From Rhizophagus irregularis (taxonomy: Eukaryota; Glomeromycota; Glomeromycetes; Glomerales; Glomeraceae): a stretch of 64,000 bases of DNA. The translations under genes and the position numbers were made by a program. The stretch lies in assembly GCF_026210795.1 (NCBI RefSeq), contig NC_089439.1, positions 2,046,001 through 2,110,000 of the forward strand, read 5' to 3'. Under the pieces are notes generated by a model. That model was not told the DNA's origin and ran no database searches. It saw nothing but the letters and a program-made list of their open reading frames with translations. Below are positions 1 to 59,105 of this stretch, one piece after another. The number at the start of each line of letters is the position of its first letter. Positions within the stretch are counted from its first letter, which is position 1.

Positions 1-206
1 TTTTTTTTTGGACATTTTTTATGAAAATCGTTAACAATTTCTTCTATTTTATTTAGTTTATTAGAAAAGAGTTTGATACAATCGTCTGTTTCTTTACAGT
101 CTGGGCAATATTTAGCTTGCCTTTTCCTAGTTTTTCTGTTATCGGTAAGTTTTATTTTTTGAACTTGATACGGATGTGTTTTCGGTTCATAACTTTTCAA
201 TGGCAT
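1..206 (-). CDS. CxxC small-protein family, copy 1 (cut by window start)
   Basis: Reading leftward from the ATG at 204-206 gives about 68 residues open to the window edge. They begin MPLKSYEPKTHPY, continue with a basic stretch (DNRKTRKRQ), then CPDC, then the helix-like segment IKLFSNKLNKIEEIV. Order and spacing match the complete copies at 7.4, 18.5, 29.4 and 37.6 kb, so this is the N-terminal half of the same family. The C-terminal FNAKFTLNN block lies outside the window. There is no signal peptide or membrane segment. The function is unknown. The basic patch plus CxxC could suggest nucleic-acid or metal binding, but that is inference. It is one of the more divergent members (MPLKSY instead of MSSKNY). 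Confidence 0.75.
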   Translation of the reverse strand, partial: MPLKSYEPKTHPYQVQKIKLTDNRKTRKRQAKYCPDCKETDDCIKLFSNKLNKIEEIVNDFHKKCPKK

Positions 207-2823
207 TTTTTTTATTAAATAAAATGAAGGAAAATATCTTACGTATCTTAGAGAAATAAATATGTAATATGCATGAATTTTTTTTTTTGTTCTTGTTTTT
301 TTTTTTTGTCTTTTTTTTTCTTTTCTCGACGCATTTTTATGAAATATCGGAAATGAAAAATAATGACATAATTTATACCACCATTTTTGTTTTTGTTGTA
401 AATTTTCAAAACAAAATATTTACAGGTATTGCAATTTTAAGAAAAAAGCTTATATCATCATTTATACACGAGAATAGATTATCCTTTGTTCGATAAAATT
501 AGGAATTTTTAAATATTAAAAATGTATCCCTTGGGTATTTATTCACTATAAAAGTTCAAATAATAAGTATTTATACATTTTATAATAAGGATCTATCTTC
601 TAATTAAGAATTAAAACCAATTATGTACAATACAACTTAAACGTGTCCAAATAAAATTTATTACAGCAGAAAGATCGATTCATAATGACATTATCTTATC
701 ATGGGAAAATCAATAATCAATTGTTTATTATTACCTAAAGATAAGATCTTTCCACAGAATCTTATCTATCTTGTAGCATCGAAGATCCATTTACGACGTT
801 TTTGTATCATGTGTATTATTTTATTATTAATTTTATTTATCTTCGTGGGATGGTAAATTTGAGTTTAAAAATTATTGTACTGCCTGTACTACAAATTATA
901 ACACGAATAAAATTGCATAGTGTTTTAATCCGTTTACCCGTCTTATATATATGTGTATATGTATATATGTATATATACTTCCGGTTTTTTAGACGGAGTT
1001 TTGATACATTAATAAATCCGATGTTATCTGTCGGCTATTATTTTTTATAACAATCCGTTTATTCGGCGGATCCGTGCAATGTCGAAATGTACATCAAACA
1101 AAATTGGTATCGAAAGTAGACTATCTAAAATCTAAAGTTAAAACTGATCGACAATCTCGCTACATAGCCCTTTTGTCGAGGAACCTCTAACTCTTATGGA
1201 CTTGCGACTCTAGTAGTAGTCACAAATGATCGGCAATTTTTTGGCCAACTTTTCAGGGCCAGAATTACGTAAAATGACAATAAAATTCTGGTCGCATTAT
1301 CTAAAAAAAGAAAGATCTGCATTAAAATGATCCTTATATGTATTTTTCGGGTCTACTCCAGCGAATCAAGAATGGGTTATTTAAAAAATTTCTCGTGTAT
1401 GATATGATACAATAATTAAAATAGTGCTACATCCTCCATCCGGGGATATACTGTAGTATGAATATCCGTAAGTGTTATATTGTAAAAAGATCAACATCTG
1501 TTGTGAGAAATTTTAATGCATGAATAATTAAAAAATTGAATATAAACAAACGCATTGACAGACATTAGTATTATTTTAGAGGGTGGAAAATTACACAAAA
1601 TTAAAAAAAATTTACTTACCGCCCTTATAAAATGTCATTTTGGCAAAAAAAAGCAAAGAAAAAATCACGTCATATAATAACCGTCTTACTATATAACGTT
1701 AGAAAGAATAATTAACATGCATTATTGATATCCAGTAAATTACAAACTAAGTTATATGATTAATCACAAAAAGGAATTTGCGTTAATAAAATTCATATAT
1801 TTATCAGTTCGTACAAATCATAAATAAACAAAGAAAAATCAGATTATCAGTTAAAATTAATAACAAACCAATATATGTATGTTATTTTTATTTTATTTAC
1901 CTTGAATTAACGGTTAGATATCTTATCTGCATATTGTAGTGTCTAACTAAATACCATTTAGAAAATTCCCGTAACATAAAGGACAAGCAATTAATAATAA
2001 TAATTTTTTTTTTTTAGTGGAGACCTGAGAACAGTAAATTATATGGGTCAGAACGATTCAGCTGAGTCGAGTTTTGTACTCGAAACAAGCGAACCAACTC
2101 GAATATGAAGTTCTGAAACAATAAATAAATTAACAATTCTTAAATACTACTCTTTAACTCTACAAAATCTTCTGATTTCCGAACGAATTTGATCATTTGT
2201 TTTATAAGACAACAGATCAATATATTGATGTATTTAGTATACAATTTAATTGATCCGTCCTATCAAGTGTACACAGATTTTGACTTGAGTCGCGAGAATA
2301 ATATTTAATTCTGGTCAACATTATGCCTCTTCTGTCCCCGGTAAAATTACGGACGGTCGAATTTACTTTGCCAAAAATTCTTGGCTCTGTCTAACCTGAA
2401 ACTTAAATATTGTCTTTTGGACATCATAATCTTAATTTATTTAATCCAAAACATCATTTCAGTTATATATAAAAATAAAATAACTAGCAAAGAATATATG
2501 TAAGGAATTTTTATTATTTTGCAAGTAATGATAGTGACTAAATATTAAAAAATAAGTGACTATTTTTATCATGGATATAAGATTCCTCGTCAATAAAAAA
2601 CTTTAACAATTGAGTTTGACGATAAAGATAATGTTTATAAATCGTTGCAAAATATAACACCAATAAGATTTCACTTTGGAAAACGAAAAACGTGACGCCC
2701 GCTTCGGACGTTTAACGGTCACCGTTACCTAGTATAATAAATTAGAAGAAATTTTAATTTACAACTTTAATAACTCTAGCAAATTTACTTAGTCCGGGTG
2801 ACACTATAAATTTGGCCCAGTAA
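207..2823. other. Intergenic, no supported gene
   Basis: Apart from the hAT relic at 1248, I see only A/T-rich sequence, a TATATG run near 955 and open frames of under 90 codons with no recognisable protein. Confidence 0.6.
1248..1317. mobile_element. Relic of the hAT-like MITE family
   Basis: CTTTTCAGGGCCAGAATTAC and, 30 bases on, AAATTCTGGTCGCATTATCT then AAAAAAAGAAAGAT follow the order of the interior of the 43.7 kb element. Neither end is present. Confidence 0.5.
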
Positions 2824-2901
2824 CCCTATAAATAATTTTTCAGAAAAATGATCACATGTCTGAATAAAAATTAAATTTTTTTCCAGAATTTTTTTATGGG
2901 G
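2824..2901. mobile_element. MITE family A, short copy
   Basis: Runs from CCCTATAAATAATTTTTCAG through AAAAATGATCACATGTCTGA to TTCCAGAATTTTTTTATGGG. Same ends and order as the copies at 20.4, 22.4 and 43.3 kb, but with an internal deletion. Confidence 0.7.
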
Positions 2902-3996
2902 ATAATATAAGCAAATGTAACAAAACTATTTAATAAAGAAAAAATTTTTTTTTTCTCGGAGTTGACAAGAAATAATAGCTAACCTATTTAGTTAAGTAAT
3001 AAACTTTTAAAATTTTAGGTCATTATTTAAAATTGCACTCCTATTATTTTAGACCCTGCATGAATGTTTATTTTTAATATTTCGTATGATGAACCAATAA
3101 ATACTGTAGTTAATCACATAGTATTTTTCTTTTAAATAATATAAAGTTAGATAGCAGTACTTTAACAATATAAATTTTATATATAATACTATTTTATTAT
3201 ACAGTATATAATCCGAATATTTTATTGCTGATAAATAAAAAACAACGCCAAAGCTCAAATATGGTTATATTATTGTATAAATGGCTTTCATGAAACATAT
3301 TGGTCTATTTGTAACTTCTCTTTCTCCTTCAACTCATGATAGCGGTATTATCCATATTAAGTACAATTTAAAAGGGTACTTTTTCGAAATTTTCTTTGTT
3401 TGAACAATATCTTGTCATAAATGAAACGCAATATCCATGCATATATTTTTTACTTTGCTTACGAATCATATGTTCAATGGATAATAGTAGTCATCTAACT
3501 ATTTCATAAATATTGTTTATTAATCAACGCCAATGAATCTTCTATACAGAATTTCAACTTACGATACTCATCAATTATAATAATAAGGTTTTTTCCGTAT
3601 CATTACGAACTTTTAAGTAATAACTTCAATCGTCACAAATCACGATTTAAAATATAATATTTAGGAATAAATTCCTATTATAGCCGGTAAAATTTCGTTA
3701 ATACTGAGTATAAAGTTACCGAGTATTAACTACATTGTCCCATTTATGTTTAATGATTCATATCGTATCGCTAAATTATAGTGAATCGGTCAACGGTAAA
3801 CTTATAAGTTTAAGTCTATTAAAGATTCGATATTGTTAAATAATGTGTTATTTGTTTCTAAATAAATAAAATATTTATGAGTCATTATTACATTTGTATA
3901 TTTAGATTACTAATTAAAAAATCGATTTATTAATGCAATTTATTGAGGAAGATTTGCAATAAATGACTCTACCTTATATATTATCGAATACGAACC

Positions 3997-4087
3997 GTAA
4001 AAAATTTATTTTGTTTTTTTTTATTCCATATTATTTCGTAAATGTATCATCATATTTACGGAGTTTTTACATAAAATGTTTACAGGG
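3997..4087. mobile_element. MITE family B relic
   Basis: TTCGTAAATGTATCATCATA, TTTACGGAGTTTTTAC and a terminal TTTACAGGG match the right half of family B (compare 30.7 and 39.2 kb). Confidence 0.55.
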
Positions 4088-4102
4088 CTTAGACTAATTA
4101 TT

Positions 4103-4127
4103 GTCACGTGCTTTGTCTGCACGTGAC
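4103..4127. repeat. Short hairpin GTCACGTGC
   Basis: GTCACGTGC and GCACGTGAC are separated by seven bases, just upstream of the LINE target site. Confidence 0.6.
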
Positions 4128-4165
4128 ACTGCATATTTGCACAAAATTCTACCTTTCGTGTGATT

Positions 4166-4414
4166 AGTTTTATTAGATCCCCCATAGACCATTCATATTT
4201 TTAACATCCCCTTAGCCTTTTCCTAGTGGTAGGTGGGTGGAAATGCTTCGGCTGATCCCCCACGGTTCTTCTTATTTTCGCACCAGGGTGACGCTGTCTT
4301 CGGGCGGTTTGATTCCAGCATAGTTTAGATAACGTTTGGCTTTTTTTTAAAAATTAGTTCTTGTTTATCTTTCTGTAATCTTGTTCACATGGATATTAAA
4401 AATAAAAATAAAAT
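4166..4414 (+). mobile_element. 5'-truncated LINE 3' end with 22-bp target duplication
   Basis: A 249-bp insert rich in G+C for this window (TGGTAGGTGGGTGGAAATGC, GGGTGACGCTGTCTTCGGGC) ends in a TAAAAATAAAAATAAAATAA-like tail. It is bounded by perfect 22-bp direct repeats at 4144-4165 and 4415-4436 (AAATTCTACC...GTGTGATT). A long target duplication, an A-rich 3' tail and 5' truncation are the marks of target-primed reverse transcription by a non-LTR element. The perfect duplication implies a recent event. Confidence 0.85.
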
Positions 4415-4436
4415 AAATTCTACCTTTCGTGTGATT

Positions 4437-7215
4437 CTGCTATAAGGCTACTTCAATTCTAATGAATTGAGCCAACAAGGACAATGGTTTGCTAATGATG
4501 AATAAAAAAATGGAATGGAAAAGAAGATAAATTTCTTATAAATTATTGCAAATAAGAATCTAATAATCTAAAACAACACTTACTTAATAATGAATAGAGG
4601 CAATTTATTATGACACAAAATTGAATATAAATCATAATTTGGTAAAGTAAATAAGTAGAAGGAATTATAAATCTAAAAAAGAAAGCTTCAATGTAGGCTG
4701 AATACGCTCTCTATTGCTCAGTAATTGGGCCATAAAAATATCAAAGTTTGCCTTAGAAAATTTATCAAAATCAAAAAAGTAGTGTAGTTAATGATCGTTC
4801 AACATTCATAGGTAAATTCAAACTTTTACGATCAATTAAAGGATTCTTTAAATTTTATTCGTCGTTTCTTTTCATAAAATCGTTAGTTCTCTTTAAAAAT
4901 GATTCAATAACTTATAATAACTAAAGAAATTTAAACTTTTTTCTAACAGATAAGTATGATAGGAACGACAATAATGATCTGAAAGTTTAACAGGTAAATT
5001 TGAAGAATCGAATTTATTATCATTGTTAAACTTGTAGTTTAGTATTTGTAATTTGCGGTGTAAGAAATATGAAAGATTTGGTTAATTGTCCACCAAAAGA
5101 GGATTGAAAAGAAGTTATTGGTGAATATTGCGCAAAGAACTCTAGAGAATTACAAGTTTACTATAATTTTAATCTCATTTATAATTGATTTCATCCTGCA
5201 TATTGGTAACTAATGATTTTTTTCTCTTTAGACCAACATTATCAATCAAACATATCTATAAGGCACGGTTGTGGTTTCGTGACGCCCACGCGTTCTTCGT
5301 ACAAAATTTCTTGGTATACTGGAGTAAAAATAGTTGTTTCTCTTCTTTCACTAATGTAATGTATAAGTTTTTGAGTAAACTTACAAAAGGACTAGATAAG
5401 AACTTAGCATTATAATAATTCTAGCAATTCTATTCAAAAACTACAAAATGACAATTTTCATTTATTCAATTATAAACACAAAAACGTTAATTATAACAGA
5501 GAAATGGATATGGTGATTGGAGAATATTCTTCGGAAAGAGTTCTTGTGAAAAATAATTCGAAAAATCGACTTATATTATTAGCTTTGATGATTTTATTCA
5601 CAAATTAATCTTTTATCATCTTTTAAAGTATCTCATCCAAATAAATAGCATAATACTATCAAAGAATTCCTTTTTTCGATTTAATTATAACATAAATCGC
5701 TGATAAACTAATAACATAATCTATATACTTTGGGCACAACCTATACAATAAAATTTCTCGAGATAAGAATAATTTCCGAAACGTAAGCGCAGGACATTTC
5801 CGTTTGATCTTATATCATGCATAATTTGACTGGTTAAATTAATACCGTTTACGCTCTAACGATCCCCGTTAGTAATACAATTTATGCTGTGAGTTTGAGT
5901 ATTAAAAATTTATTTCAGGGATCTAGTGTCACTTTTTACAAAATCCCCTGGAATACAAATCGAAAAAATTTCACATTATTATTAATTAAAGACATGAAAA
6001 AAAGATACAAAAATGAAGAAATTTAAAAATAAATGAAAGAATATAGTGGAAACAATAAGAATATAATAAAAACAATAGTGAACAAGAAAAACAGCATGAA
6101 CAATAGAAAAAAGTTTGAATTATATAAAACTATTTTTAGTGAACATTGTAACAATTGCTTATAATAAATAGTATCATATTCTTATATAAATTAGAAGCAA
6201 TTTTGTTGATTTCAAAAGGTCATATATTTAATTAAAACATACAGCCTTAGACTTGCGTCAGGGTCTTTTAAAATCCTCAAATTAATCAAAAAATCATATA
6301 TGAGAAGGATATTCAAGAATCCTCCACTAAAAAAATTGATTATGAAAGGCTTATAAATAACATAATAGCTGAACTAAATTACGATTATTTATTTTAAAAT
6401 ATTTTTTAATAGATACTAAAGTCTATGTATAATCTGTAAACCAATCTAATTAAAAAATTTTTTTTTTTTTTTTTTCCTAGAAGCAATTTCTATTTGTACG
6501 TGTGTTTCCAAATTTTTATGCCAATCATTTAATGTTGCCCGGAATTAAAAAAAAAAAGATTCGTCTTAGACACTTTAACAGTTAAACAGTTGAGTATAAA
6601 ACTTACAGAACAGGCAAAATACACTTACTGTAAATATTTTTTTTTTTTACATTATGTTATTTTCTGTCGATGAAACGCCCGTGTATATTAAGAAATCTTC
6701 TCATCTTAATTAGTATTAAATCAAAAGCAACAATTTCTTTTAGATCATTATTGTTGATCACTTGTCATTTGACTTCGGAATTCGGGTCTTTCCGCCCTTT
6801 ATTGAGAACATTACATTATTGAGGTAGAGTCTCTTGATTTAATTGTTTTGTTTAACGTAGTGCAAATGATCAACATGATAAAATCGACTAAATACTTTTA
6901 ATTTAAGCTTTTACTTTTTTATTAACTTTGAAACACAGATAAATTAAAAAGTTTCACGATTTGGCTGAATTTATTTTAATTTATTTTTTAATAGGATCAG
7001 TTCATTGTTATTGGAATAAAGATCGAAACATATCTCCGTATACGCTTAAACTAAACCGGATGAAATTTTTACGAAATCCGTTTGTTAAAGGTTTTGGCTT
7101 GTTTTTGTTTTGTAGATGATTATCAACCAATAAAATTTAAATCTTATTTTTTATATTATTGTTCATATAAATCTTAAACAACTATATCTTATAATTAAAT
7201 CTTAAAAATAATAAT
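4437..7215. other. Intergenic, no supported gene
   Basis: A/T-rich. The 76-codon frame at 5185 has a slightly more protein-like middle (ARLWFRDAHAFFVQNFLVYW) and could be a gene relic, but nothing around it supports a gene. Confidence 0.5.
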
Positions 7216-7226
7216 TTGTGTTTGTG
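7216..7226 (-). promoter_or_regulatory. Conserved 3' element CRCAAACACAA, copy 2
   Basis: Reads CACAAACACAA on the gene strand, 137 bases past the stop of the 7.4 kb gene. The same 11-mer follows all six family members whose 3' side is visible. A role in mRNA 3' processing or stability is inference. Confidence 0.5.
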
Positions 7227-7362
7227 AAAAAAGGTAAAAAAAAAAAAATATTTTCCAAAATGTCAGTAATTTAGAAATATCAAAACCGTGATTTTTCGAT
7301 AAAATTTTTTTGGTATATAATAAACTTGAAGTTTTCGATGTATAATAGAATTCCGAGAGATT

Positions 7363-7791
7363 TCAGTCGTTAGAAGATGTAGAAGAGGCAGAAGGGATAG
7401 AAGATTTAGAATGTATAGAAGATGGATATTTATTATTTTCGTTATTATTATCGCAATTTTGTGTCGTAAAAATTACTAATTTTTGTAAATTCTCTAAAGT
7501 GAATTTTGATAGATCATAGTCCACTTCACATGGAACATTATTTAAAGTAAATTTTGCGTTGAAAGTAGAAATTTGTCGAATGCTCTTTTTAGGTAAATTC
7601 GTGTAAAAATTGTTAACGGTCTCTTCAATTTTATTTACTTTACTAGAAAAAATTTTAACGCAATCGCTTGTCTCTTTACAGTCAGGACAGAGCTTGGGAG
7701 GTTTTCTCCTAACTTTCCTATTGTTATTGCTGTTAAGAACGATTTTCTGAATATATGGATGCGTCCCGCGTGTCCTTATTTTGTTTGACAT
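7363..7791 (-). CDS. CxxC small-protein family, copy 2 (intact, 142 aa)
   Basis: This is an uninterrupted single-exon frame. I prefer the ATG at 7789-7791 (MSNK) because the sister genes begin MSSKNY; an upstream in-frame ATG at 7798-7800 would add three residues. Layout: basic stretch RKVRRKPPK at about 25-33, CPDC at 35-38, an extra Cys at 44, amphipathic KIFSSKVNKIEETV at 46-59, the conserved block FNAKFTLNNVPCEV at 77-90, and LVIFTTQNC ending at Cys113. A Ser/Asn-rich tail of about 29 residues follows. The four family cysteines are 35, 38, 88 and 113. I recognise no named domain. It has the longest Ser-rich tail of the set. Unlike its sisters it has an A-rich leader and no clear TATA box nearby. 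The family 3' motif is at 7216-7226. Confidence 0.85.
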   Translation of the reverse strand: MSNKIRTRGTHPYIQKIVLNSNNNRKVRRKPPKLCPDCKETSDCVKIFSSKVNKIEETVNNFYTNLPKKSIRQISTFNAKFTLNNVPCEVDYDLSKFTLENLQKLVIFTTQNCDNNNENNKYPSSIHSKSSIPSASSTSSND

Positions 7792-7800
7792 ATTTTGCAA

Positions 7801-9559
7801 ATAACGAGTTGCAATTTATTGAAGTATTTTATTTTTTATTTTTTATTTTTTTTTTGTTTTTTGTTTTTTGTTTTTTCTCTTAGTGCATAAGGTTAATCGG
7901 TTTTTTAAAAATTACATTCATCAAAGAAAATTTCAGTGATTTAAATATATAATCGTTTGTGTGTTATTGGTTCTTTGGTGCAAATTTTTTTTTCCAGATT
8001 AGATACCGATCGGCATCACACATAATCGGGTAATAAGTTTTTATTATTGATTCCAAATTTTTATACAGTCAAAGCTTTTGGATTTGAAATAACTGGATGT
8101 TTATTTATGTAATAGGTGAATGGTCAATAAATGTAAATAAATAATATATTAATATATTATAATGAACCTATATAGTGAATTGGTCTTAAGTAAATGCAAG
8201 ATTTTATTACCAGAAATCTTTGATGGATTTTATATTATAAAAAATCAATAGAAAGTCTCTTAATGAATTACTTTTTTAGTACTTGATGACGCTATTGACA
8301 TAAGAATAAAAGAGTGAAAAATTAAATGAGTATTCATAAATTATTCGTGGAAATTGGGTATTTAAAAAGATTAAATCAAAATCTATGTTTAGAGGTATAA
8401 ATATAGATGGCGATGCCGAAAAATAGCTCGTACCCCTGTTACAGATTAAATTTATTATTTTCAAAAACAAATAAATAAAGAATTTATGAGAAATCTGATA
8501 GGTTAGATCATTGAATTGGTTGACCATTTTTATTTTTACCCTTATATATATTTTATTGTTTTGCTAATATATCGGATGACACATTGACTTCAGGACAATG
8601 AGAAATGTTTTCTTTGTTATCAAAGATGAAACAAATGTGTGACTAATTAAAGTTTATTCAATAAAATTAGTTGTCATATAATTGATTGCTTTTAACATCC
8701 ACGAAATATACTATAATGAGTACACGTCACCTTTTTTTTTAGTTATATTAATTAAATCTCATACAATCTAAAGCGTCCTATAAAATATACAGCAATTTGT
8801 GATACGCGCACTATTGATCTTCTAATAATAACGCGTAAATATCCAAAAGTTATTTAATTTGGTTATATCAATCATAATACGCTTGAAATTATTACAATCT
8901 CCGAAATAAAAAATAAACCAAATCTAACTGCTTTGAGACTTATTTATTAGTATTCGACCTTAATGCACAAATAAGACTGACCTTGTGTTATTCCCTTGTT
9001 TCAATATGTTTATAGCCGAAAAAAATCATTAAAAAATTAAAAATCGTTTATTTATAGAATAATTAAAAATTCTCACTTATCAAATATTATAAATTAAAAT
9101 TTTTTTAAAAAAATGGAATTCCTTGTAAAGTACCAACTCATTTAATAAAGAAAGCAGAATGAAACTGAATGAATGAATGAATAACCTTGTAAGCAACGTG
9201 CATGTGCATATGATTATATAATTTGAATCAAAATTATTTTTCAAAATATTTTTTTATTAATCGGTATTCGGTTTTTAGTTTGATAGATGTTTCATTTATC
9301 AGTTCCTACATATACTTCTCAAATAAGGATATTACTATGAAAGATAATAATCACATTCATTTGACCGTTTTAGTAAGATCGCACATATTAACGGTATAGT
9401 TATGGCAATTGATGCAGTCATAAATTCAAAATAACGATAGGTTAGCTAATCAATGAGAATTTTATTAGAATTATTGTCAATGAAATATTAACATGATTGT
9501 ATATAATCAAATGAATATTATTAAGTAATTACGTACTATATTATTGCAAATAATGTAAT
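7801..9559. other. Intergenic upstream of copy 2
   Basis: TTTTTGTTTTTTG runs at 7840-7880, then plain A/T sequence. No gene, RNA or inverted element recognised. Confidence 0.55.
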
Positions 9560-9561
9560 TA

Positions 9562-9657
9562 CTGCATATAGTATCCCCCTTTGAGCGTACCCCATCTAAA
9601 AGACCCGGGTATTCTACTAAATACAATTGTACAATACCCAGGTACTACTATATGCAG
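9562..9657. mobile_element. MITE family C, short copy with TA duplication
   Basis: CTGCATATAGTATCCCC to GGTACTACTATATGCAG, flanked by TA on both sides, with CCCGGGTATT inside. 96 bp. Ends and interior word match the 26.7 kb copy. Confidence 0.75.
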
Positions 9658-10079
9658 TACTAGATGGTACATATGCTAAGAACTCGGTCAATTATTCGCG
9701 TCCGTCTTCATTCTCCTTAATTGATACTTATTTAGGTTTCACTCACTAAAATCCGTTATAAATTGCGGAAATTCCTATTCCCGATGTGTTATTGCTTGTT
9801 ACATCAAATTTATTAATTTCAATTTTTATCTATTTGTATGAAATATTCTAGAAAGGTTTTATCTATAAGAACAATTAAATAAATACTACAAATACATGTA
9901 TACTCGATCTACGACGTAAGTTTTATTTTTTTGATTATAAATTTCTTTTCAATTAATCGTCAATTACAAAAAAAAGGCGTAAAAGTTATTTTTGCTACTC
10001 TATTGTTTGTCGTGATCGTTTTAGAATAAGAAATTTAATTGTCAGATGCTCATTGCCCAAAATCATAAGATTATTTTGT

Positions 10080-14470: not shown

Positions 14471-14541
14471 TACTATAGTTTATTTTGACTATTATTAAAG
14501 TTTATAGATAACATTTTACTATTTCTCTTTTTTTTCAAACC

Positions 14542-45969: not shown

Positions 45970-46009
45970 ACCGATAATCAACTCATAGACAGTTATTTTA
46001 CGGCAGACA

Positions 46010-47495: not shown

Positions 47496-50294
47496 GGCTA
47501 ATGACTTCGCAAGTCAAAAATAACAAGGTTCGAATGGTTAGAAAGGTTATCCTTATAAAATCATTATAAAGCGAAGTAAAAGTAAAATTCAATACTTCTA
47601 TAATTTTCTAGTAAATATAATTACATATTATAAAACATGAAACGACTGAAACGTTATTAATAATAAAATTTGTGTCAACCTTATAATTAAGTTTGTAGGT
47701 ATCAAACGTTAAATAAGCTTATGTAATTTAAATATTAATCAAAAAAATATTAAATCCAGGCCAATAAAATTACGTATTTAACTAAAATATTATATAATTC
47801 TTTAGATAAATAATATTAATATTAAATCGTAAGTTCATAACTTATAACCATAATAAATAAATATACATAAAATGTGATAAAAAAAAAAATTACGGTATGA
47901 AAATGACGAAATACGATATAACGAACCGATTTTGACTCATAACTTCTTAAACCAAATCCACTTATAATTAGTAATTTTATCACAATATACCGATTTTATT
48001 ATGTATAAATTTCGCGATATTAATATACCAAAGTCATGTTTATAAACCAGCCATATTTAACGATTATCCGATTTTATCCTAATTCTGGCCAGCATTAAAT
48101 TAGGTTGGCCAGCATTAAGTGCACAGCTAGCAAATCACTTGAATTTTCCTATAAATTTTAATTATTAGTAGAGAAGTTTTACAAGCATCTCTACACAAAA
48201 TATATTTCTCTTATTAATAATTTTTTTTAATAAAAATACATTTTAAAATTGAGTTCGGTGCATTAAGGACATTTGTTTTACCAAATATTCGATATAACGA
48301 TCCACGATCACATTTCATTGTAGTGATTTTTTAATTGTGATCACGTGTTCTCTAAACTACTAATAAGATATAAAAAAAATGAACAAAATAGATGCAATTA
48401 AATATTTTTTTAGTATTATTGAACTTATTATTATTATTATTATCTTCACTGGAAGCAGTACCGCATAACGGAGGCCATAGTACTACAAATTTCAGCCCTT
48501 ACCGGTTTTATTATTAGTAGATGTATAATACTTATACTGTATAATAATATGCGCAATGTCGGTCTAGGTTATTAAATTATTTTTAATAATAAAATCGGTA
48601 GAAAATGAAAGTCCTTTTTTGTTGGGGGAGAAGACTGTGGCCCGTAAATACTCGTAAAATACTGTCTCAAATTTAAATATTAATTATGGTACTCGCTCAA
48701 TATTATTATATTTAATAAATTGTTTTTTTTTTCAAGAATCGAAGATGCATATTTTCTTTGTCAACATTATAATCACCATCATTTGGTTCTGCAATAATTT
48801 CTCGAATGTAATTAATTTAGGATCGAAAATTAGTTTTTATTTAATCGGATCATTAGTTTTATTCCAAAATGGTTTTCAATGGCTAATTTAAACCGTTAAA
48901 AAAATGTTTTTTTAATATATATATATATATTTTTTTTGTGGAGTAATCAATTGCAAACAAAAATAATTGTCATGAGACAGTTACTATCTAAAATAAATTT
49001 TTTTCGATCAAATCATCGATCACGCATTGATTCATTCATTAAAAAGAACTTACAATACTTACAATTATTTTTATCAGAAGAAAATTTAGTCTTATTTGGA
49101 GATTTAAATTAAAATCTGAAGGTTCCACATTTTAAGATATGCAATGTATTATAATTTAAAAAGGGTAGAAAATATGGTAAATAAATCATATCCCGGCGTA
49201 CTAAATGTGACTTGTGATAAATATCGTAATCTGGAAATGGAAATGGATCGTTCAATATTATTCATTATATTATTAGTTTGTGACGCGTTACGTTGATAAA
49301 ACCAGGACAAGAAACTAAAAAAATTGTCAATTTAACGGTATTACTTAAACTGCTTAAAATAAATAACTTTTTCGGGTTAACTATTTAAAAGTTCTTTAAA
49401 GATTTGATTAATATTCACTTTCAGATATTAAATACGGATTATTAAACTGAAATTAATAGAATTAATTTTATTAATTTCATTCAGTTTTATTAATTAAACT
49501 TCCTCAATTAAACAATACTATTTCTAAATAATGTTTAAATAAAAATATCTGCAATAGTATTTCTTTTTTTTTTTGCGATATCAATTTTATTAATTTTTTC
49601 TTTTTTAAGAAAAAGTACACAGTAAAAAATTAAACAAGAAATTCGTCATATAATAATTATTTATTTAATACCATATAATAATCTATAAATCATAATAAAA
49701 TACCTGAATAAAAATTTATAGCCCACCATCTTATAAAAATCGTGTTTGTGATGAAAATGAAAAACATAAATTTTTAAAGAGAATCATCAAGATCCATAAA
49801 GAATTTCATAAATATTTTTTCAACATAGAAGTGAAGTTTCAAATTTGCATTATGAAAATAGATTCTAATGAAACAATCACAAAGAAGTTGCTAAACATCT
49901 AGCAGCAGGTAAAAATAAAGATTCGAACGTTATTAAAACTATCGTTGATTTACTGTACGTTGTTTTACACATAAAACACCGTTGCACTACGCGTTTTTAA
50001 ACGTTTTAAGTGGCGTTAAGATACAAAAGGTTCGTTTCCCTACATTTTTTGGTGTTGAGTAATACATGTATGGCGGTTTTCAACACTTCATACGCCCATG
50101 AAAACTTCCTGATGTTCAACGCTAATTATAGAGTATGTGTAGTTTTATTTAAACTATTGTTATCATAAAACTTGTTCCATTAAAGAAATAATTTTCAATG
50201 GAATTTTATTTGTAATTTGTGGTATGCGATTCGGTCAATAGTACTAGAATTATCTATCGTGCAACGCGATCTCAAGTAGTAGGCTATTCTGCAC
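47496..50294. other. Intergenic, nothing recognised
   Basis: Very A/T-rich, with GGCCAGCATTAA twice near 48075-48120, a TA run at 48918 and a lone CGTGTTTGTGATGA at 49741 that resembles the family 3' element but has no gene beside it. Confidence 0.5.
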
Positions 50295-50390
50295 TTATGG
50301 AAAGCCGCCATGGTCAAAAGTGCGTAGCAAAACATAGCGTGTACACGCTATGTTTTGCTACGCACTTTTGACCATGGCGGCTTTCCATAA
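50295..50390. repeat. Perfect 96-bp palindrome, no spacer
   Basis: Two 48-base arms meet at 50342/50343. The left arm begins TTATGGAAAGCCGCCATGGT and the junction reads AGCGTGTACACGCT. I found no mismatch from 50295 to 50390, and pairing stops at both outer bases. G+C is far above the surroundings. Confidence 0.95.
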
Positions 50391-50453
50391 TATGGCAAAT
50401 CCGTACCGTACTTGTCTTAGTTGATTTTTTTTTTATATGTTCAAATAAATACA

Positions 50454-50632
50454 GACATTAATGTCCAAATGACCAACATAGTTAAAATGGACATTGGTGT
50501 CCAATCAAATAACCATTATGGTCAAATGGACATTAATCAATATGCTAAATGTACCATTAATTTCCATTTTTATGTGGTTATTTGGATATCAATGTTTATT
50601 TAACTATGGTGGTTATTTGGACATTAATGTCC
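50454..50632. mobile_element. Element with GACATTAATGTCC ends
   Basis: The left end GACATTAATGTCCAAATGAC and the right end inverse GACATTAATGTCCAAATAAC, continuing to a shared CATAGTTA, form 30-base terminal repeats. Interior GGACATT and TGTCC words recur. Confidence 0.65.
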
Positions 50633-50662
50633 GTAGTTATTGGATATATAGAAAAAAATTAA

Positions 50663-50792
50663 CTGTACCGTACTGAATATATATAATATATATGGTACGG
50701 TACGGTACGGAATTTTTGAAATTTTTGGAAAATGATCAACCGTACCGTACCGTACAGGTACAGGTTTTCAATATTGTACCGTACTGAGTATC
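50663..50792. repeat. GTACCGTACC palindromic cluster
   Basis: TACGGTACGGTACGG and CCGTACCGTACCGTAC face each other, with further GTACCGTACTG words at the edges. A CCGTACCGTACTT at 50401 suggests the element once extended left and was split by the 50454-50632 insert. Confidence 0.6.
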
Positions 50793-51270
50793 TATATAAT
50801 CCGCGATTTCGATCTTTATTGACGTTATTTATATTATTTGCTACGTTGTCCACAATTTCTTGATGACATTGGAAGATGTGTTTTTGTGATACTTGTACAA
50901 AGATCGGTGAAAATTTTGCTGTATATTAAAGGCTTGATATGCTTAAAATCTTTTACCAAATCTTCAATCTTTACTATTACCAAGATTTGTGATAGCAATA
51001 AATGTTGTACTGCATTAACGAACTTTATTATTCATCTTAAACTGCCATACCTTATCCGCCTTATCCGTAAATGTTCATCCGCGAGTTTGTAAAGCATACT
51101 AGATTTACGAAAAAAAATACGGAATTAAATTACAACGCAATATGAAGATGAAGAAGAATTGACTATGCCAGTTGAAGTTGTTGAATAACTTTTTCCGTTT
51201 TTTTTAATGCATTATTTATTGACAATTGATTTGTTTCGTTTAAATTGAATTGTATTGTGTTGATTTATTT

Positions 51271-51652
51271 TAGAGGTTGGAACCGACCAAAAAAACTTAA
51301 CCGATTAATAATCGATTAACCAAGGGCCCTAATCGATTAATAATCGATTAATATTAAAATATTAAAAATTTTTTTTTTTTTTGACCGCAGATTGCACCAA
51401 ATTGTTTTTGATCATACATTTAGTTATAGGAAAGTCTTATTTATTGTTATTATCATCAAAAAATTAATACAAATTCTTCCAAGTTCGGAGAACACGTGAC
51501 CAAAAATTCACAGCTCTGGGCCGCATTAGATAATTTGACCAGAATTATGGGTCGATAATTTTAATCGATTAACCGATTTTTGAGATACCTTAATCGATTA
51601 ACCGTCTTAGTCGATTAATTAATCGATTAACCTTAATCGATTCCAAACTCTA
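51271..51652. mobile_element. Element built from AATCGATTAA words
   Basis: TAGAGGTTGGAACCGA on the left pairs with TCGATTCCAAACTCTA on the right. Between them TTAATCGATTAACC-type words occur about ten times in both orientations, around a central A/T stretch and one GACCAGAATTATGG. Confidence 0.7.
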
Positions 51653-51739
51653 ATTTATTTGATGTATAATAATATATTCGGTTAACTTTTTACATAAATT
51701 GGGATGAAAGTATTAACTAGTTATGTGTCTCTTCTCTGC

Positions 51740-52200
51740 GTAACCTGGAGCGATTTTTTGTTTTCTCTTTGTTAATTTTCCAACTTGAGTTTAATTAAAT
51801 TTTTAAATATTATTATGATTTGTTCATTTAAAAAGGTTAAATTAATAATAATTGTGACTTAAATTGTTATTATTCGAAAGAGAATATTATATAATTGACA
51901 TATATATATATCAAGTATCACAAATAAAGACACATTTGGAAAATGTTAACTACTTAAGGGTTTGTCATCTTTTTTTTTCAAAATCCCCCTTGCCTCAAAA
52001 ATTTTAACTTTAAGAGGATCCTAATCAATTATTCTAGTAACTATATAAATTCTAATTTTCAAAGATTTTATTATTAAATATTATATTTCCTCATAAAAAA
52101 TCTAATTTTATAAAGTACTAATTACTCTCCCATTTACTATTCGCCTATTAATTTTAGAAATTTATTACTTAAAATCACGCAATTTGATTTTGACTCTCTT
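51740..52200. repeat. Intergenic block shared with 30.85, 38.57 and 53.58 kb
   Basis: CTTTGTTAATTTTCCAACTT then GAGTTTAATTAAATTTTTAA recurs at 53580, 38570 and, weaker, 30850, all in plus orientation. At 38.6 and 30.9 kb it lies upstream of the minus-strand genes, so it seems to be part of the unit amplified with them. Confidence 0.6.
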
Positions 52201-52600
52201 TCAGTTTCAATTTCGTTGCGGTAAAAAAATTTAACCGTTTAGCCCGTGATCTACGTATATTTTTATATTTTACGCCACACGACTACAATTTTCACATTGT
52301 TCTGCACTTGTTATTTATCGCCGTTATCGAAATAATATATTCGGATAAAAAATGAATTTCTTAATAAAAAAATTTCGATGATACCATTGATATTTCATCA
52401 TTTTTTTTTTTCATCAAATTTTAAATACATTCCTATTTGTGCTACCACTCATGCGGATAAAGAACCACTAATGAAGCGTATCTACCTTTCAAAATTATCG
52501 TATAAGTTAATTAATTTGCTGATTTAGATAATAATTAAGTAATAGAGATATGAAGCGCTATCATTTATAGTACAATATTTACAAATGAAAACTGAAAAAC

Positions 52601-52610
52601 TATATATAAA
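52601..52610 (+). promoter_or_regulatory. TATA-like box of copy 6
   Basis: TATATATAAA, 74-83 bases before the family ATG at 52684. The leader CTATTTTTTTTTTTTACTTT resembles that of copies 4 and 7. Confidence 0.4.
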
Positions 52611-52683
52611 CCCTATTTTTTTTATAACATTTGACAACAAATAATAAGTTTTGATCCTATTTTTTTTTTTTACTTTCGTTATA

Positions 52684-52990
52684 ATGTCATCAAAAAATTA
52701 TGGACAAAAAACTTGCGAAACGCCGCAAATTCCAAAATTTTGCTCTGATTGTGAAGAAATGAGCGATTCTGTCAAACTTTTTTCTAGTAAAGTAAATAAA
52801 ATAGAAGAAGTTAATGACAATTTTTATAAAAATCCCATAAAAAAGAATAAGATTAATCAATTTTCCATATTCAATGCAAAATTTACTTTAAACAATATCC
52901 CTTGCGAATTAGAATACGATTTATCAAAAATTTTGCAACAACAATAATAAATATTCATCTACTATCGAAAATATCGACAATAATGGCGAA
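52684..52990 (+). pseudogene. CxxC small-protein family, copy 6 (truncated by deletion)
   Basis: The only copy on the plus strand. The family start MSSKNYGQKT is at 52684; an ATG at 52651 in the T-rich leader extends the frame artificially. The open frame runs 87 residues to a stop ending at 52947. Two lesions are visible. First, CETP is followed almost directly by PKFCSDC, so the protein is about 15 residues shorter than copy 5 there and lacks the basic KKRKPPK stretch. Second, after YDLSK roughly 50 bases are missing, including the LVIFTT region, and the join is out of frame (ILQQQ then stop). The displaced tail NNKYSSTIENID is still readable in another frame to about 52990. The CxxC and KLFSSKVNKIEEV parts remain. 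Probably non-functional, though a short product could be made. Confidence 0.85.
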
Positions 52991-53015
52991 ATCGACATAT
53001 TTTCCAATAATTCAT

Positions 53016-53026
53016 CACAAACACAA
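53016..53026 (+). promoter_or_regulatory. Conserved 3' element CRCAAACACAA, copy 6
   Basis: CACAAACACAA on the gene strand, followed by ATTTTATGCATTAAG exactly as beyond copy 5. It is the only plus-strand example, so the element moves with the gene. Confidence 0.55.
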
Positions 53027-53089
53027 ATTTTATGCATTAAGATTAATTAAATCAAAGATTCGTGGCTTGTACAATTATGTTTCCTTATT

Positions 53090-54100
53090 AGGTTAGTTTC
53101 AACCGATAATAAATACATAGCAACCTTTTACGTTAAATTCAATTCCTTTTTTTTATTTAAAATAATTTATTATTACGATATATATGAATAAAATGTGTTT
53201 TTTTTGGCATTAGTTTTTATGGTCGAATTTTATCATCTTAATTTATCTTTTCGAACTCCAGATGTTCAGTAATCAGTATGATAAAGCATTGTTACATCTA
53301 TTGAAAATCATACGTGTGTAATTGCACTACTTGAAGATGTTATAAAAAACTTCTCTGGACAATGATTTGTTTAAAAATTTTATCCGTTACATTACGGAAA
53401 AATAACTAAAATATGATTTCTATGTTTTGAGGCTGTAAATTCCGCGAATAACATGGAACGGAATATATTTTTTCATAAGAGTTTCTAATTAATTTATAAT
53501 TAATAAAATAAAAAAATTGAATGTAAGTAATAATATATTTCACGACGTATATGCAACTTTGAAGCAATTTTTTTTTCTTCTTTGTTAATTTTCCAATTTG
53601 AGTTTGATTTAATTTTATAAATAATATAAAAATTCTTTTTTTATCTACAAAAATGGTTAAATCAATAATTATATGAAATAGTTGTGAATTAAATTCATAC
53701 AATAAAACATTGTACTATTCAAGAATTTATTATGTTTCAAAATTAAAATTCTAACTTTACATAGTTACTAGAAAATACGGCCCCTTAATTACTATTTTCC
53801 CGTGAAAAATCTAAAATTAGATTTCCTATTCGCATACTATTTTCATAATTTAATTGTAGCACATACTCCAGTCTCAATTTTAGTACCAATAGAATGTTTT
53901 CGGTTATTTTGATCATGTTTAATATTTACCAGATAAAATCATTATCTTCTAACTTACGCGTTTCATGCGTTTCATGATAATGTTGTATATATGATATGAT
54001 TTTTTTTTTACCAATTCAGCAGCGTCAAATTTTTTGCTCAAATAGTTTCAAATTATATTATTATGCAAGTGTGCAATAGAGCACATCTTTTCGTTACACT
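53090..54100. repeat. Flank of copy 6, inverted copy of 58310-58640
   Basis: CATTAGTTTTTATGGTCGAA, CTTTTCGAACTCCAGATGTT and ATAAAGCATTGTTACATCTA are the inverse of sequence at 58420-58500, and GAGCACATCTTTTCGTTACA near 54080 is the inverse of 58338-58360. The duplication thus includes pseudogene copies 6 and 7 and 1 kb of flank. Confidence 0.75.
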
Positions 54101-54130
54101 ACATAAATTATAATTGTCAACTAATAAATA

Positions 54131-54178
54131 CACCCACTCAGGTGATCATATAAGGTTAGATGATCACCTGAGTGGGTG
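54131..54178. repeat. Hairpin with 19-base arms
   Basis: CACCCACTCAGGTGATCAT and its exact inverse ATGATCACCTGAGTGGGTG are separated by 10 bases. Confidence 0.85.
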
Positions 54179-56454
54179 ATTTTAGTTATGTCACCTGATC
54201 AAAATAAAAGGATCATTTTGCGCATCACGTTCTAAAACAAATTATTTCAATAACCGGATTTCTTTCCATTATCTAATTTTTCAGTCGAATAAAGACACAT
54301 TTGTTAAATTTTTAGGTGCATTTCACCGGGATCTACTTTGCCAAAACCCATTTTTAGAACCCGTGTCATTATTTTATTGAAGGGATATTTTACCGATATT
54401 AATTTTTTTTTAATGAAATAAAAAAAAAATAAACGTTTAATATTTATTATGTTTAAATATTATATTCGAATGATTCACTTTATTTATTATTTGATATTCA
54501 ATATAAATGAAAATGATCCGAGTCATTTGAATTTCATGAATTTATACAATAAATATAAAAAAAAATTGTTTATATAAAGGTATCAAGATGGATACATTAC
54601 ATTGAGTGCTAAGTGTTGCATGTTAATATTATCAAATTTTGCCTCAACTTTTCACTTTAATAGACCATCCGTTAAGAAACTTTTTTTTCCTTTATTTCAG
54701 AGAATGAAACCGATAATGTGATCAAAATTGAATATTAAGTCTGAACTTTCGTTTTGTCAGTTTCACTTCAAATATTTCTTTTAGAAAAATAATTTTACTT
54801 ATATTTGAAGTAATCGAATGTTTCTTCTTTTAAGTTTCATTAAAACATTTTTTAAAATTTTTTTTTTTTAAAATATACGTTAATTTTTTTTCATCATTTT
54901 TTGTAAGTATTGGTTCTGACTCTTTCAAGTTGGTCCACACGAACAAATTTTTTTTTTTTTAAAGAAACGTTGTTAGTTTTTTTTGTAGATTTTGGCTTTT
55001 TTGGGAGGATGATATGTTCCGAAGGTAAAATTTTGAGACTCTGCTGTTAAGCGTAGGTTTGACCGGACACTTCCACGAGAAGAACAAATTTTTTTAAAAA
55101 AAAGTTTAGAGGCGGATGGTAGTATATTTTTAGGTTAAAGCTTCGAAAATGTTGTAACTTTAAATTCTTATTTAATAGATGTTCACAATATTTCTTTCTC
55201 ATACATAAAAGCAATAAATGTCATAATTACATTGTATTTGTTAAAAAAAGTTAAAAAATAAATTTTCTTTTTACTTAGAATTCTTAACAGAATACTTTTT
55301 TGTAATAATATATACTCTTAACAACTGAAAATTGAGTAAATCTCCAAGCAATCCTACATTTCTTAACTAAAATTATTATACATAACTTGAATCTTTTTAG
55401 TTTTAAACTAAAAGATTAGAGACTGGATCCGTTAATCCGGATATGGATAATACAAGTGTTAATTCGGGCCAATTTATAATTCTGGCCGGAATTATCACCT
55501 AAAATGGAAATTTATTTGACGATCTTGTACAATAATTATGGCCGGCACTATAAATATGGCCCAAATTATTCTGAACGGATATTTATCCGACCCAATAAAT
55601 AAAAATAAGTAAAATTGATGCATTTATATTAATGTTAGGTTTGAATTTGGTAACAAAATTGAATTTTATCCTACAATCGAGAATCTGGAAATTTCTTCTA
55701 TATATATATTCGGTAAGCTGTTACAAAAGAAATTTTTTTGCTGATTTGTAATAATCAGTTAATCACCTGTTGCTGTGTTGCTTCAAAACAGTTCCCCTGC
55801 TGTCAATACATTTATTTAATCTGAAATGAGTTTATTTGAATACTCTAACTTAATTAGTTCTGAAAAAAGGTCTATGGTAATGTTACTATGTAGGTCATCA
55901 CATGGTAGTATATTGGTCAGTCAGCTAAAACGCGTAAGAGGCACAATCAAAAACTCGTTTAAAATTCTATACTTAAAATTACAAATTTTTAAGTAATAAA
56001 CTTTTGAAAATGGTAGGCAAATAGTAGGTGAGGACTGAGGAGTAACTATATTATAAAAAAAAAAAAAATTAGAATTTAAGGGGTCATATTTTTCTAGTAA
56101 CATGTGACAAGGGAAAGCAATAGTTGCTTCAAAAGTAAGTTACGCGACTCAGAAATAATTAATACTTAGTTACTTACATTCTCGACTTATTTGAAATATA
56201 TTATTTGTATAATAATTTTTTAATATTACTTATATTCAATTTTTTTTAGTTTATCAATTTAGAAAATGAAGGCGTTATCTAATTATTCTAATAATACCAT
56301 CTACAATTCATATGTAACGATTTTAACGAAACAACTCATTATCCGAAGATCTTCAATTCTTATTATTGTTTGTGCAAGGTTGAATAAAAACGACTGACTG
56401 ATGATATTTTCTTATACAATGATATTCAAAACTAGTATCATGCGCAAATGATAA
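54179..56454. other. Intergenic with GGCC-AATTA words
   Basis: TTCGGGCCAATTTATAATTC, TGGCCGGAATTATCACC and GGCCGGCACTATAAATATGG at 55465-55560 form a loose inverted cluster. No supported gene. Confidence 0.5.
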
Positions 56455-56668
56455 AATCTAAAAAATTTATTACACGGATTTTATATTGGTTCTTAAAAAG
56501 TATTTAATTGGTTTGAGTATTTGAATTATACAAAACTTTAAAATAAAAATGCAAGAAAATAACTTTGGTAAATTTTACGCGTCAAAGTCAGGGAAGAATA
56601 TTTCTTTGATTTTCTTAATCGCTTAATTAATGCGACTTAATTTAGAGCATACGAATAAATAAGTCAAT
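56455..56668. repeat. Third, near-identical copy of 40418-40648
   Basis: About 200 bases including TTGGTTCTTAAAAAGTATTT, GGTTTGAGTATTTGAATTAT and ACGCGTCAAAGTCAGGGAAG differ from 40418-40648 at only a few positions. This is much closer than units A and B are to each other, so a recent copy. Confidence 0.85.
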
Positions 56669-57194
56669 CTTCGCAAAAAAGACTGCAAGAAGGTTTAACC
56701 ATATTATAACTCTATTACAGTATATAGAAAAATTGTACACGCCCACCGAATAACTTAATAATTTATGCACCGATTTATATAAATTTTTATTTAAAAATAT
56801 AATGATGTTCAGCGCAAAAGAAAGAGTCCTACGCGCTAAATCTAAGATTTGCATACGAAAAATATCATTCTTTTTAATTGGTTTGATTATTTAAAAAGTA
56901 TTATAATTTTTTAATTCAACAAGTAAAGTTTTGATTACCGAAAAATATTACATCGTAGTACACTCTAATTTAACAAGATGCCATAATTGTTTCACATATC
57001 CAAGCCATATATTTATATATATACACACACTGACACACCTCATGTGATGATTCTACATGTGATTAGATACGTTCCATACTTCTTCTATGTGGGAATGCAT
57101 ATTTTATATTTAAAAAAGTTTTTTCTTATAGTTAAAAATAGTTGTGGCTGATTAATATGTAATAATTGTAATTAATAAGGAAGAAATATATCGA

Positions 57195-57290
57195 TACTGT
57201 TTGCAAATGACCAGGTCATTTTGGCCATTTGAAATGACTCCTGAATGACCTTCGAATGACCTAGTCATTAGTCATTCTAGTCATTTAAAT
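57195..57290. repeat. AATGACC/GGTCATT repeat cluster
   Basis: AATGACCAGGTCATT, CTGAATGACCTTCGAATGAC and AGTCATTAGTCATTCTAGTC. Similar words occur at 16710-16765 and 41995-42065. Confidence 0.5.
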
Positions 57291-58675
57291 ATAATGCTGT
57301 ATTAATTCGGGCCGAATTTATGATGCAGGCCAGAACTACAAATATATAATATCACGTGATATAATTTATCCACGGAATAATTTTGGCCTGAATTATGATG
57401 TAATTTATCATTAATGATCCAAATGTCACGTGACAATCCAATTGGTTTTAAAGAAATGTATATAAAAAAATGTATTGTTACAGACAGACGAGAATAATGT
57501 ATGAGTATAGATTTTTTTAGTATTATGATAGCAATAAATTTTAAAACTTCGTTTCTACTTTCTATTTTAGAAACTATACATAAACACCACATTTTAGTAA
57601 AATTTGTAACTTTTTATAGAATTGTGATCTTTACATTTATGTCTTATTATGCATGGCTTATAAAAACATTTATTGGCCTGGATTGGAACAATTCTGATAT
57701 TTGTTTTTGATTATTTAAATTATATAAACTCGATACAAACTCAATTATAAGGATTTTAATGGGATTAAAACTTGATGCGAATTCTATCTTAATAATGTTT
57801 TCATGTTTTTAGAATTTGATATTATATTTACTAGAAAATTTGTAGAAGCTTGCTATACTAATACGCAATTCTGCTACCTTATACATGTATAACTAACTGT
57901 AAAGAAGCCATCATCATTAGTGTTGTATTATGCTTACTATTTCGAAAATTAGTTTTTATTTGATAACTTTAGACAACACTATTACTACTGGTTCATACCA
58001 TGATCATGATCATTAGTTTCATTCTAAAGAGCTTTCAATGACTAATTTTAAACCGTTAAAAAACTTTTTTTTATTTGGTAGAAAATATAGTTTAAAATAT
58101 ATGTAAATAGTTATATACCGTCGCACTAAATCTGAAAACTCTGATATCCCAAGAAATTACTTATATTAATGGAGCTCTACTTGTGTCTTAAATTTGATAC
58201 ACGTAGCTCATATTTTTTTTATTAGAGCCGATGTGGAACCGAATTAGAACCGACGAACCTATTTCCATACCTCATGCGCCAAATGATTATCAGGTGACTA
58301 ACTAAAAAGGAGTGATAATATTATTTGTGTAGTGTAACGAAAGACTGTGCTCAAGTGACATTTGCATACAGTATTTTGCATGCTTGATATAATTTGAAAC
58401 ATATTAGATGTAGTAATGCTTTATCATACTGAATATCTAGAGTTCGAAAAGATAAATTATTAAAATGATAAAATAGATCATCAAAAACTAGTACCAAAAA
58501 CACATTTATTCATTGAACATATCGGAATAATAAATTATTTTTTTTTTAAAAATTAAAAGATAAAAAAGGAATTGAAGAATTAATAAAAGTTGTTCTATGC
58601 CTCTAAGGAAACATAAATGTACAAGCCATAAATATGAGCAACATCTTGACTTAATAATTTCTTAATAAATCAAAC

Positions 58676-58686
58676 TTGTGTTTGCG
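58676..58686 (-). promoter_or_regulatory. Conserved 3' element CRCAAACACAA, copy 7
   Basis: Reads CGCAAACACAA on the gene strand, preceded by TTTAT as in copies 4 and 5. It is still intact although the reading frame is broken. Confidence 0.5.
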
Positions 58687-58756
58687 ATAAATTATTAGAA
58701 AATATTTTTTTTTCTAATCGCTCTTGCCATTATAAATTGTAAATATAGTCAATGAA

Positions 58757-59105
58757 CATTTATCATTACTTTCGTTGTCGATATTTTTGATAGAAGATGA
58801 ATATTCATTATTGTTATTCCAATATTGAGTTGTAAAAGTTACCAATTTGTGTAAGTTTTCTAAAGAAAATTTTTGATAAATCGTATTCTAATTCGCAAGG
58901 GACATTGTTTAAAGTAAATTTTGCATTGAAGGTAAAAATTGATTAATCTTATTCTTTTTTATAGAAAATTGTCATTAACTTCTTCTATTTTATTTACTTT
59001 ACTAGAAAAAAGTTTGACAGAATCGCTCATTTCTTCACAATCAGAGCAAAATTTTGGAATTTGCGGCGTTTCGCAAGTTTTTTGTCCATAATTTTTTGAT
59101 GACAT
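58757..59105 (-). pseudogene. CxxC small-protein family, copy 7 (frameshifted)
   Basis: The start MSSKNYGQKT and the following 46 residues match copy 6, including the same loss of about 15 residues before CSDC. Near 58965 a roughly 10-base deletion after NDNF shifts the frame and gives a stop after 48 residues. Further single-base changes lie near 58938 (one base fewer) and 58870 (one extra A before TTTTCTTTAG). The rest of the family is readable in pieces across frames down to ESNDK near 58757, and the final family Cys codon is replaced by TGG. Because copies 6 and 7 share the first deletion but have different later lesions, the gene was damaged, then duplicated in inverted orientation, then decayed independently. 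Confidence 0.85.

Follow-up and report, generated by a model that had tools for sequence, protein, structure and literature searches.

An apparently undescribed family of small CxxC proteins in a birth-and-death gene cluster of Rhizophagus irregularis

A 64,000-bp stretch of contig C11 of the arbuscular mycorrhizal fungus Rhizophagus irregularis (C11:2046001-2110000, hereafter the window, from a genome of 146,748,485 bases in 32 contigs) contains members of an apparently undescribed gene family that is genuine and conserved, and that lies in a birth-and-death cluster. The original prediction, made from the letters of the window, proposed a seven-member family of small proteins with a CxxC motif; the genome in fact holds at least 74 merged loci, 46 of them in one stretch of 428 kb. 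The intact copies encode proteins that were retained, chiefly in their C-terminal core. Sequence comparison also places the cluster copies in an unnamed R. irregularis protein superfamily, of which they make up the largest branch detected in this analysis. Our preferred explanation, to which we give a probability of roughly 0.45, is that they are real, functionally constrained genes encoding a small coiled-coil protein that forms a zinc-clasped dimer and has both a basic arm and a conserved surface for a partner.

The cluster and the selection on its intact copies

A tblastn search with the window protein P0001 as the query returned 120 matches at E <= 0.001 in the 146.7-Mb genome, and 89 of these fell in C11:1,953,787-2,382,237, a 428-kb stretch that makes up 0.29% of the genome. 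This concentration is far beyond chance. Another 12 matches lay on C11 outside this stretch, and the remaining 19, nearly all broken or partial, were spread over 11 other contigs. Merging of matches on the same strand within 500 bp gave 74 loci (the divergent relative L034, described below, among them), of which 46 lie in the cluster (25 plus, 21 minus); these counts are lower bounds. Many of the family loci carry stops or frameshifts.

In the window, open reading frames (ORFs) were called from stop to stop and then translated, and the five readable and two broken copies of the original prediction were matched by four complete copies, one across the left edge, one truncated and one frameshifted. 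The complete ORFs, all on the minus strand, are P0003 (window 7363..7791, 142 amino acids), P0004 (18492..18872, 126 amino acids), P0001 (29400..29831, 143 amino acids) and P0002 (37628..38032, 134 amino acids; the first row of alignment A2 and the subject of the first structure model), and their products of 126-143 amino acids are 61-73% identical to the first sequence compared. The copy at the left edge, also on the minus strand, has its N-terminal part at window 1..206 and its 3' end outside the window; the whole, intact ORF of 120 amino acids is L006:1498-1860(-), or C11:2045844-2046206. The truncated copy, P0005 (52684..52947, plus strand, 87 amino acids), is without the C-terminal helix, and the frameshifted copy (58662..59105, minus strand) aligns with the 52.7-kb copy at 72% over 793 columns. 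The predicted spacing of 7-11 kb is correct for the first five window copies. A shared orientation holds in the window (six of the seven copies) but not over the cluster, where both strands are used almost equally. Furthermore, the description of the family as the only clear gene content is fair, as Pfam showed nothing over cut-off in eight further ORFs of the window, yet unproven, since intron-bearing genes could escape such a scan.

Thirty loci were cut out of the genome and the 20 with intact ORFs were kept for alignment A2, the selection estimates, the coil counts and the tree; L009, L012, L017, L018, L019, L022, L023, L027, L028 and L029 were dropped as broken, truncated or start-less. 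Among the codon-aligned intact copies, the ratio of nonsynonymous to synonymous divergence (dN/dS, NG86) had a median of 0.20 in the 161 of 190 pairs with finite dS, and it lay at 0.21-0.31 in the six pairs of lowest divergence (dS up to 0.65). The comparison between copies that the original prediction had proposed therefore lies at about 0.2, not near 1. By region, the corresponding ratio of uncorrected proportions (pN/pS, as a ratio of means) was 0.16 for the hairpin and helix, 0.36 for the CxxC motif and coil, 0.50 for the N-terminus, 0.59 for the linker, where just 28 pairs could be used, and 0.66 for the tail, which is thus the least constrained region, in keeping with the earlier remark that the tails vary freely. 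Neutral simulation from one ORF, with the base composition of the genome, gave a pN/pS of 0.81-0.90 according to the level of divergence. The low ratios relative to this simulation indicate that selection has preserved the proteins of the intact copies, most strongly in their C-terminal core. Of two pairs whose members lie on different contigs, L003/L004 is 91% identical within the coding region versus 72% downstream, and L002/L003 aligns best in the coding region (89% over 401 columns) and over nothing longer.

The proposal that the copies arose by serial duplication of a large unit is unsupported, but might still apply to the old copies. No colinear match across the 7-11 kb spacing was seen in the window, where the longest family alignment, youngest window pair included, ran to 793 columns (52.6-53.3 kb against 58.4-59.2 kb); for old copies this absence is weak evidence, because their synonymous sites are saturated and their neutral flanks would no longer be recognisable. 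When the 30 loci were compared with about 1.5 kb of flank each, alignment was confined to the coding region in many older pairs. Among the younger pairs, the longest single alignment was 1070 columns (L004/L009), and L011/L013 and L009/L023 aligned piecewise over about 1.9 to 2.5 kb; a 1363-bp match of L021 and L025 is the same DNA, as these two loci overlap on the genome. Most likely, the family grew mainly through local copying, in units that where still visible range from less than 1 kb up to roughly 2 kb; copies were continually lost, and some reached other chromosomes.

Alternatively, a transposing mobile element could have spread the copies as its passengers or accessory genes, with selection acting on them only while the element was active. 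The window copies do lie in ORF-poor DNA with scattered short repeats, the cluster contains both orientations, 19 of the 120 matches sit on 11 other contigs, and short shared flanks would fit such a history. However, no transposase or reverse-transcriptase domain was found in the eight window ORFs scanned (spliced or decayed elements would escape), and the presence of 46 of the 74 loci in one 428-kb stretch fits local growth. We consider transposition an unlikely source of the cluster.

Some loci within the family are themselves unusual. At C11:2113.3-2118.3 kb (L040:3312-8263) there is a satellite-like array of family fragments, with a 383-bp unit repeated 7.8 times and two blocks of five 127-bp units, the 127-bp unit being the portion that codes for the hairpin and helix; the whole block of family fragments at this locus covers 5.8 kb. 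On C23, a single ORF (L031:636-1130) carries the N-terminal segment three times and has partly lost its CxxC cysteines. Finally, L009, L017, L018, L023 and L027 form a subfamily in which the basic patch resembles NICFENNACKIIKESK and the protein stops before or within the C-terminal helix; this NICFENNACKIIKESK-type subfamily has been copied several times although its members are truncated or broken.

Divergent relatives and the history of the intron

The two-exon gene L034 was reached through a weak match at C11:620 kb and led in turn to six more divergent relatives, which places seven on three contigs: L034 (620 kb) and L050 (589 kb) on C11, L049a and L049b on C8, and L051, L052 and L055 on C21. 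In a profile-profile comparison, the 20 copies matched the seven relatives over 80 columns with a probability of 98.5 and a P-value of 1.9e-15, the latter being optimistic because the relatives were chosen by similarity; the reversed control gave P 0.21 and ten column shuffles gave P 0.28-0.94. The spliced protein of L050 also matches cluster ORFs across the exon junction, with E down to 3.4e-7.

Four of the relatives have a predicted GT-AG intron of phase 0 and 77-111 bp, placed 9-17 residues past the last heptad position, and the cluster copies are uninterrupted in all 20 cases. When a tree was built from 81 columns and rooted on C21, all 20 copies fell into a single branch (81/82, bootstrap and Shimodaira-Hasegawa-like approximate likelihood ratio test [SH-aLRT]; present in 77% of 200 bootstrap trees) that lies inside the intron-bearing relatives; moving outward, the C8 pair comes next (88/90), then L034 (89/77), then L050, and the order of the copies within the cluster branch is largely unresolved. 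We read this as one intron-less founder, whose relatives include intron-bearing genes on C8 and C11, followed by rapid copying; the intron may have gone through retroposition or through intron loss. The intron-bearing relatives on C11 lie 1.3 Mb from the cluster.

Birth-and-death gene clusters are known from repeat-rich fungal DNA, and the cluster described here is like them in that a single founder gave rise to dozens of copies, often broken, whose flanks were lost and whose core was kept. It is unlike the usual cases in that its branch has no intron where part of the wider family has one, and in having a satellite-like array of its own gene fragments inside. Manley et al. (PMC10234402) report a burst of lineage-restricted gene birth in arbuscular mycorrhizal fungi; the main text of that article makes no mention of 'Chromosome 11' or 'chr11'. 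In the part of the open-licence literature searched, no description of a family of this kind was found.

The original prediction is supported in so far as the family changes fast and has no recognised domain. Pfam, PDB sequence and Foldseek searches gave no convincing match to a known family. The 20 members gave weak and scattered Pfam matches that differed between members (best E 0.0016; cut-offs shown for the first member only), the matches of the five window proteins were all weak and under cut-off, and those of six relatives (L055 left out) were under cut-off with a best E of 0.0009. Sequence searches of the PDB gave best E-values of 0.27 and 0.18. With Foldseek, neither structure model had a match at E <= 0.001 (best E 0.87 and 0.36), and the 50 rows listed were mostly receptor-G-protein complexes with low template modelling (TM) scores; for the first model this result is nearly meaningless, because the confidence of that model is low. 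Of the 995 chains compared by VIA-align, 30 reached Z >= 2, the best at 2.7; Spc24-Spc25 and AP2 domains are among those that tie, and none is outstanding.

Several other candidates were set aside. L056 (C12, E 0.35) was judged on inspection to be an unrelated coiled-coil ORF, L057 (C3, E 0.31) a chance match, and L053 (C25) was left unused as it has no ORF of 70 amino acids or more; a weak match also lies at C7:958979 (E 0.028). A viral origin was rejected, since none of 43 pattern matches in viral contigs was a relative; the 12 pattern matches in prokaryote contigs included no relative either.

The CxxC motif, the heptad pattern and a possible zinc-clasped dimer

The CxxC motif is kept in all 27 intact sequences, that is, in the 20 copies and the seven relatives. 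The original prediction held that four cysteines were kept in all intact complete copies, and this is so in all four complete window proteins (the third cysteine stands in QCE, not PCE, in P0001), but not genome-wide: the two CxxC cysteines are each present in all 20 intact copies, the PCE cysteine in 19 and the QxC cysteine in 13. Because some copies have lost the PCE or QxC cysteine, and nothing corresponds to either in the seven relatives, a four-cysteine site within one chain is unlikely, and the metal site that had been proposed on all four is unsupported in that form.

Downstream of this motif there is a regular heptad pattern. Counted from the first cysteine, offsets 10, 13, 17, 20 and 24 are hydrophobic in 27 of 27 sequences and offset 27 in 26, and offsets 16 and 21 are Lys or Arg and Glu, respectively, in all 27. 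With the hydrophobic offsets at a and d, offset 16 falls at g and offset 21 at the following e. A g-e' (i to i'+5) bridge is a classical feature of parallel, in-register coiled-coil dimers. The sequence after the coil, FNAKFTLNNxPCELEY, is particular to the cluster branch when compared with the seven relatives.

AlphaFold2 gave a mean predicted local distance difference test score (pLDDT) of 63.7 with the 20 sequences and of 75.9 with the 31 sequences of alignment A4, in which L012, L017, L022, L028 and L029 were re-entered together with pieces of L041, L044 and L047. Both models have a helix at the coil, followed by a hairpin and then a second helix, and in the second model the pLDDT was 83-89 for the coil and 81-88 for the hairpin.

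From these features, we propose the following layout and action. Each chain would consist of a basic N-terminal arm, the CxxC motif, a short coiled coil, a linker and a C-terminal helix, and two chains would pair through the coil, parallel and in register. The two CxxC motifs could then meet at the N-terminal end of the coil, where they would share one zinc ion and so lock the dimer; as each chain has one CxxC, a four-cysteine site needs two chains. The basic arm might touch nucleic acid or bring the protein into the nucleus, a role to which we give less than even odds. The C-terminal part may serve as a partner-binding surface, to which the cluster branch would have added a beta hairpin (the FNAKFTLNNxPCELEY segment).

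There is precedent for a clasp of this kind. According to one report (PMC8205527), C89 and C92 of each CtIP chain bind one zinc per two chains of a parallel coil, and its authors discuss the outward-facing positions of C89 and C92 in the crystal of an Ala variant. The family resembles the N-terminal domain of CtIP and the zinc hook of Rad50 in that each chain carries a single CxxC next to a heptad coil. It differs from both in sequence (no such chain appears among the PDB matches up to E 5 and E 1), in its far shorter chain with a hairpin and helix after the coil, and in the position of the CxxC, which precedes the coil rather than lying inside a long coil or at its apex. The family may therefore work like CtIP or Rad50 by analogy, yet we do not class it as either.

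The basic arm invites a further comparison, with AT-hook and other basic-arm nuclear proteins, which likewise have a basic N-terminal arm. Two of the C21 relatives contain motifs that we take to resemble the AT-hook (KRGRKA in L052 and KRGRKP in L055). Unlike AT-hook proteins, six relatives (L055 left out) had no Pfam AT-hook match, and the window copies are without an RGRK or RGRP core. L052 and L055 (C21:3075k and 3061k) also have in common IDVTGRTHxMxVRR which, with KRGRK, lies upstream of the CxxC in an AT-hook-like arm.

A number of observations weigh against the preferred explanation. For the dimer, offsets 12 and 23 are also hydrophobic (in 0.93 and 0.96 of rows), which leaves room for assemblies other than a two-chain coil, and both structure models are monomers with low predicted TM scores (pTM 0.22 and 0.32), which leaves the packing of chains unpredicted. 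For the basic arm, a K[KR]x[KR] motif like a nuclear localization signal occurs within the first 45 residues in only ten of the 20 copies. For the genes as working units, TATAWAW is found at -90 to -60 upstream in seven of the 20 intact copies and AATAAA within 250 bp 3' of the stop in six, and no upstream element common to all 20 was seen. For selection, the counts refer to intact copies, as 10 of the 30 loci were dropped, 29 of the 190 pairs are saturated in dS, and single simulated neutral pairs at lower divergence spread over about 0.52-1.30. For the history, the three C21 relatives are also without the intron, so that its loss in the cluster rests on the tree; there the key branches have 81-89 bootstrap and 77-90 SH-aLRT support, none starred, two relatives are long-branched, the composition of L034 is odd, and it is the C8 pair, not the genes of the same contig, that stands nearest to the cluster.

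Alternative roles and further features of the window

If the coil does pair chains, the copies could also act as interfering variants, which would pair through it with the intron-bearing relatives to block or titrate them, the truncated copies included. The coil pattern and its g-e' residues, common to all 27 intact sequences, would allow this, and a truncated subfamily without the basic patch and C-terminal helix has been copied repeatedly (L017 and L023, and the related L009, L018 and L027). However, it is the C-terminal core that is most constrained in full-length copies, which suggests a task beyond pairing, and L009, L018 and L027 are also broken. We regard interference as an improbable reading. 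An extension of the zinc-clasped dimer is similarly speculative and would be surprising if correct in full: arbuscular mycorrhizal fungi might have an undescribed superfamily of small regulators that act in the nucleus and share, as their minimal core, a parallel coil clasped by zinc, and one intron-less branch of it would provide dozens of interchangeable subunits, pairing mutually and with the intron-bearing relatives, with copy number and truncated copies tuning a combinatorial dimer network.

Small size, cysteines, variable tails and clustering in repeat-rich DNA are often seen in effectors, and in all of these the family would fit effectors delivered to the plant. The N-termini speak against delivery, as they are polar and basic and, judged by eye, without a hydrophobic leader in 20 of 20 copies, and so do the strong purifying selection on the core and the relatives, which resemble coiled-coil proteins with basic arms (KRGRK in two of seven); we hold an effector role to be quite improbable. 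Finally, stops or frameshifts at many loci and the 5.8-kb block of fragments at L040 might suggest functionless decaying repeats that are open by chance, which may be true of the array and the broken copies but is contradicted for the intact ones by twenty full-length ORFs with a dN/dS near 0.2, against 0.81-0.90 (pN/pS) under neutrality, and by the higher identity of coding region than flank in the young pair that shows both.

The zinc-clasped coiled coil, as the preferred explanation, has the merit of a testable physical prediction for a defined superfamily, namely a parallel dimer that shares a zinc. Genetic manipulation is difficult in arbuscular mycorrhizal fungi. The history of the family can also be read, from relatives that in part bear an intron, through a single founder without one, to dozens of copies of which many are dead, and the cluster is suited to asking whether local gene copying in repeat-rich DNA yields working subunits or mainly debris.

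Elsewhere in the genome, PF05920 (Homeobox_KN), the only homeobox model searched, had two matches at E <= 0.001, at C12:2090236 and C12:3454352, and none on C11; those on C12 possibly include a mating-type candidate. The window itself has a GC content of 23-34% in 2-kb steps and contains no telomere repeats. A perfect palindrome of 96 bp lies at window 50295-50390 and longer, imperfect ones (75-85%) at 50426-50658, 62705-62906 and 62930-63162, all of which may be remnants of mobile elements. A low-complexity, pyrimidine-rich stretch at window 59892-60787 contains three overlapping long ORFs on the plus strand and a 60-bp tandem repeat.

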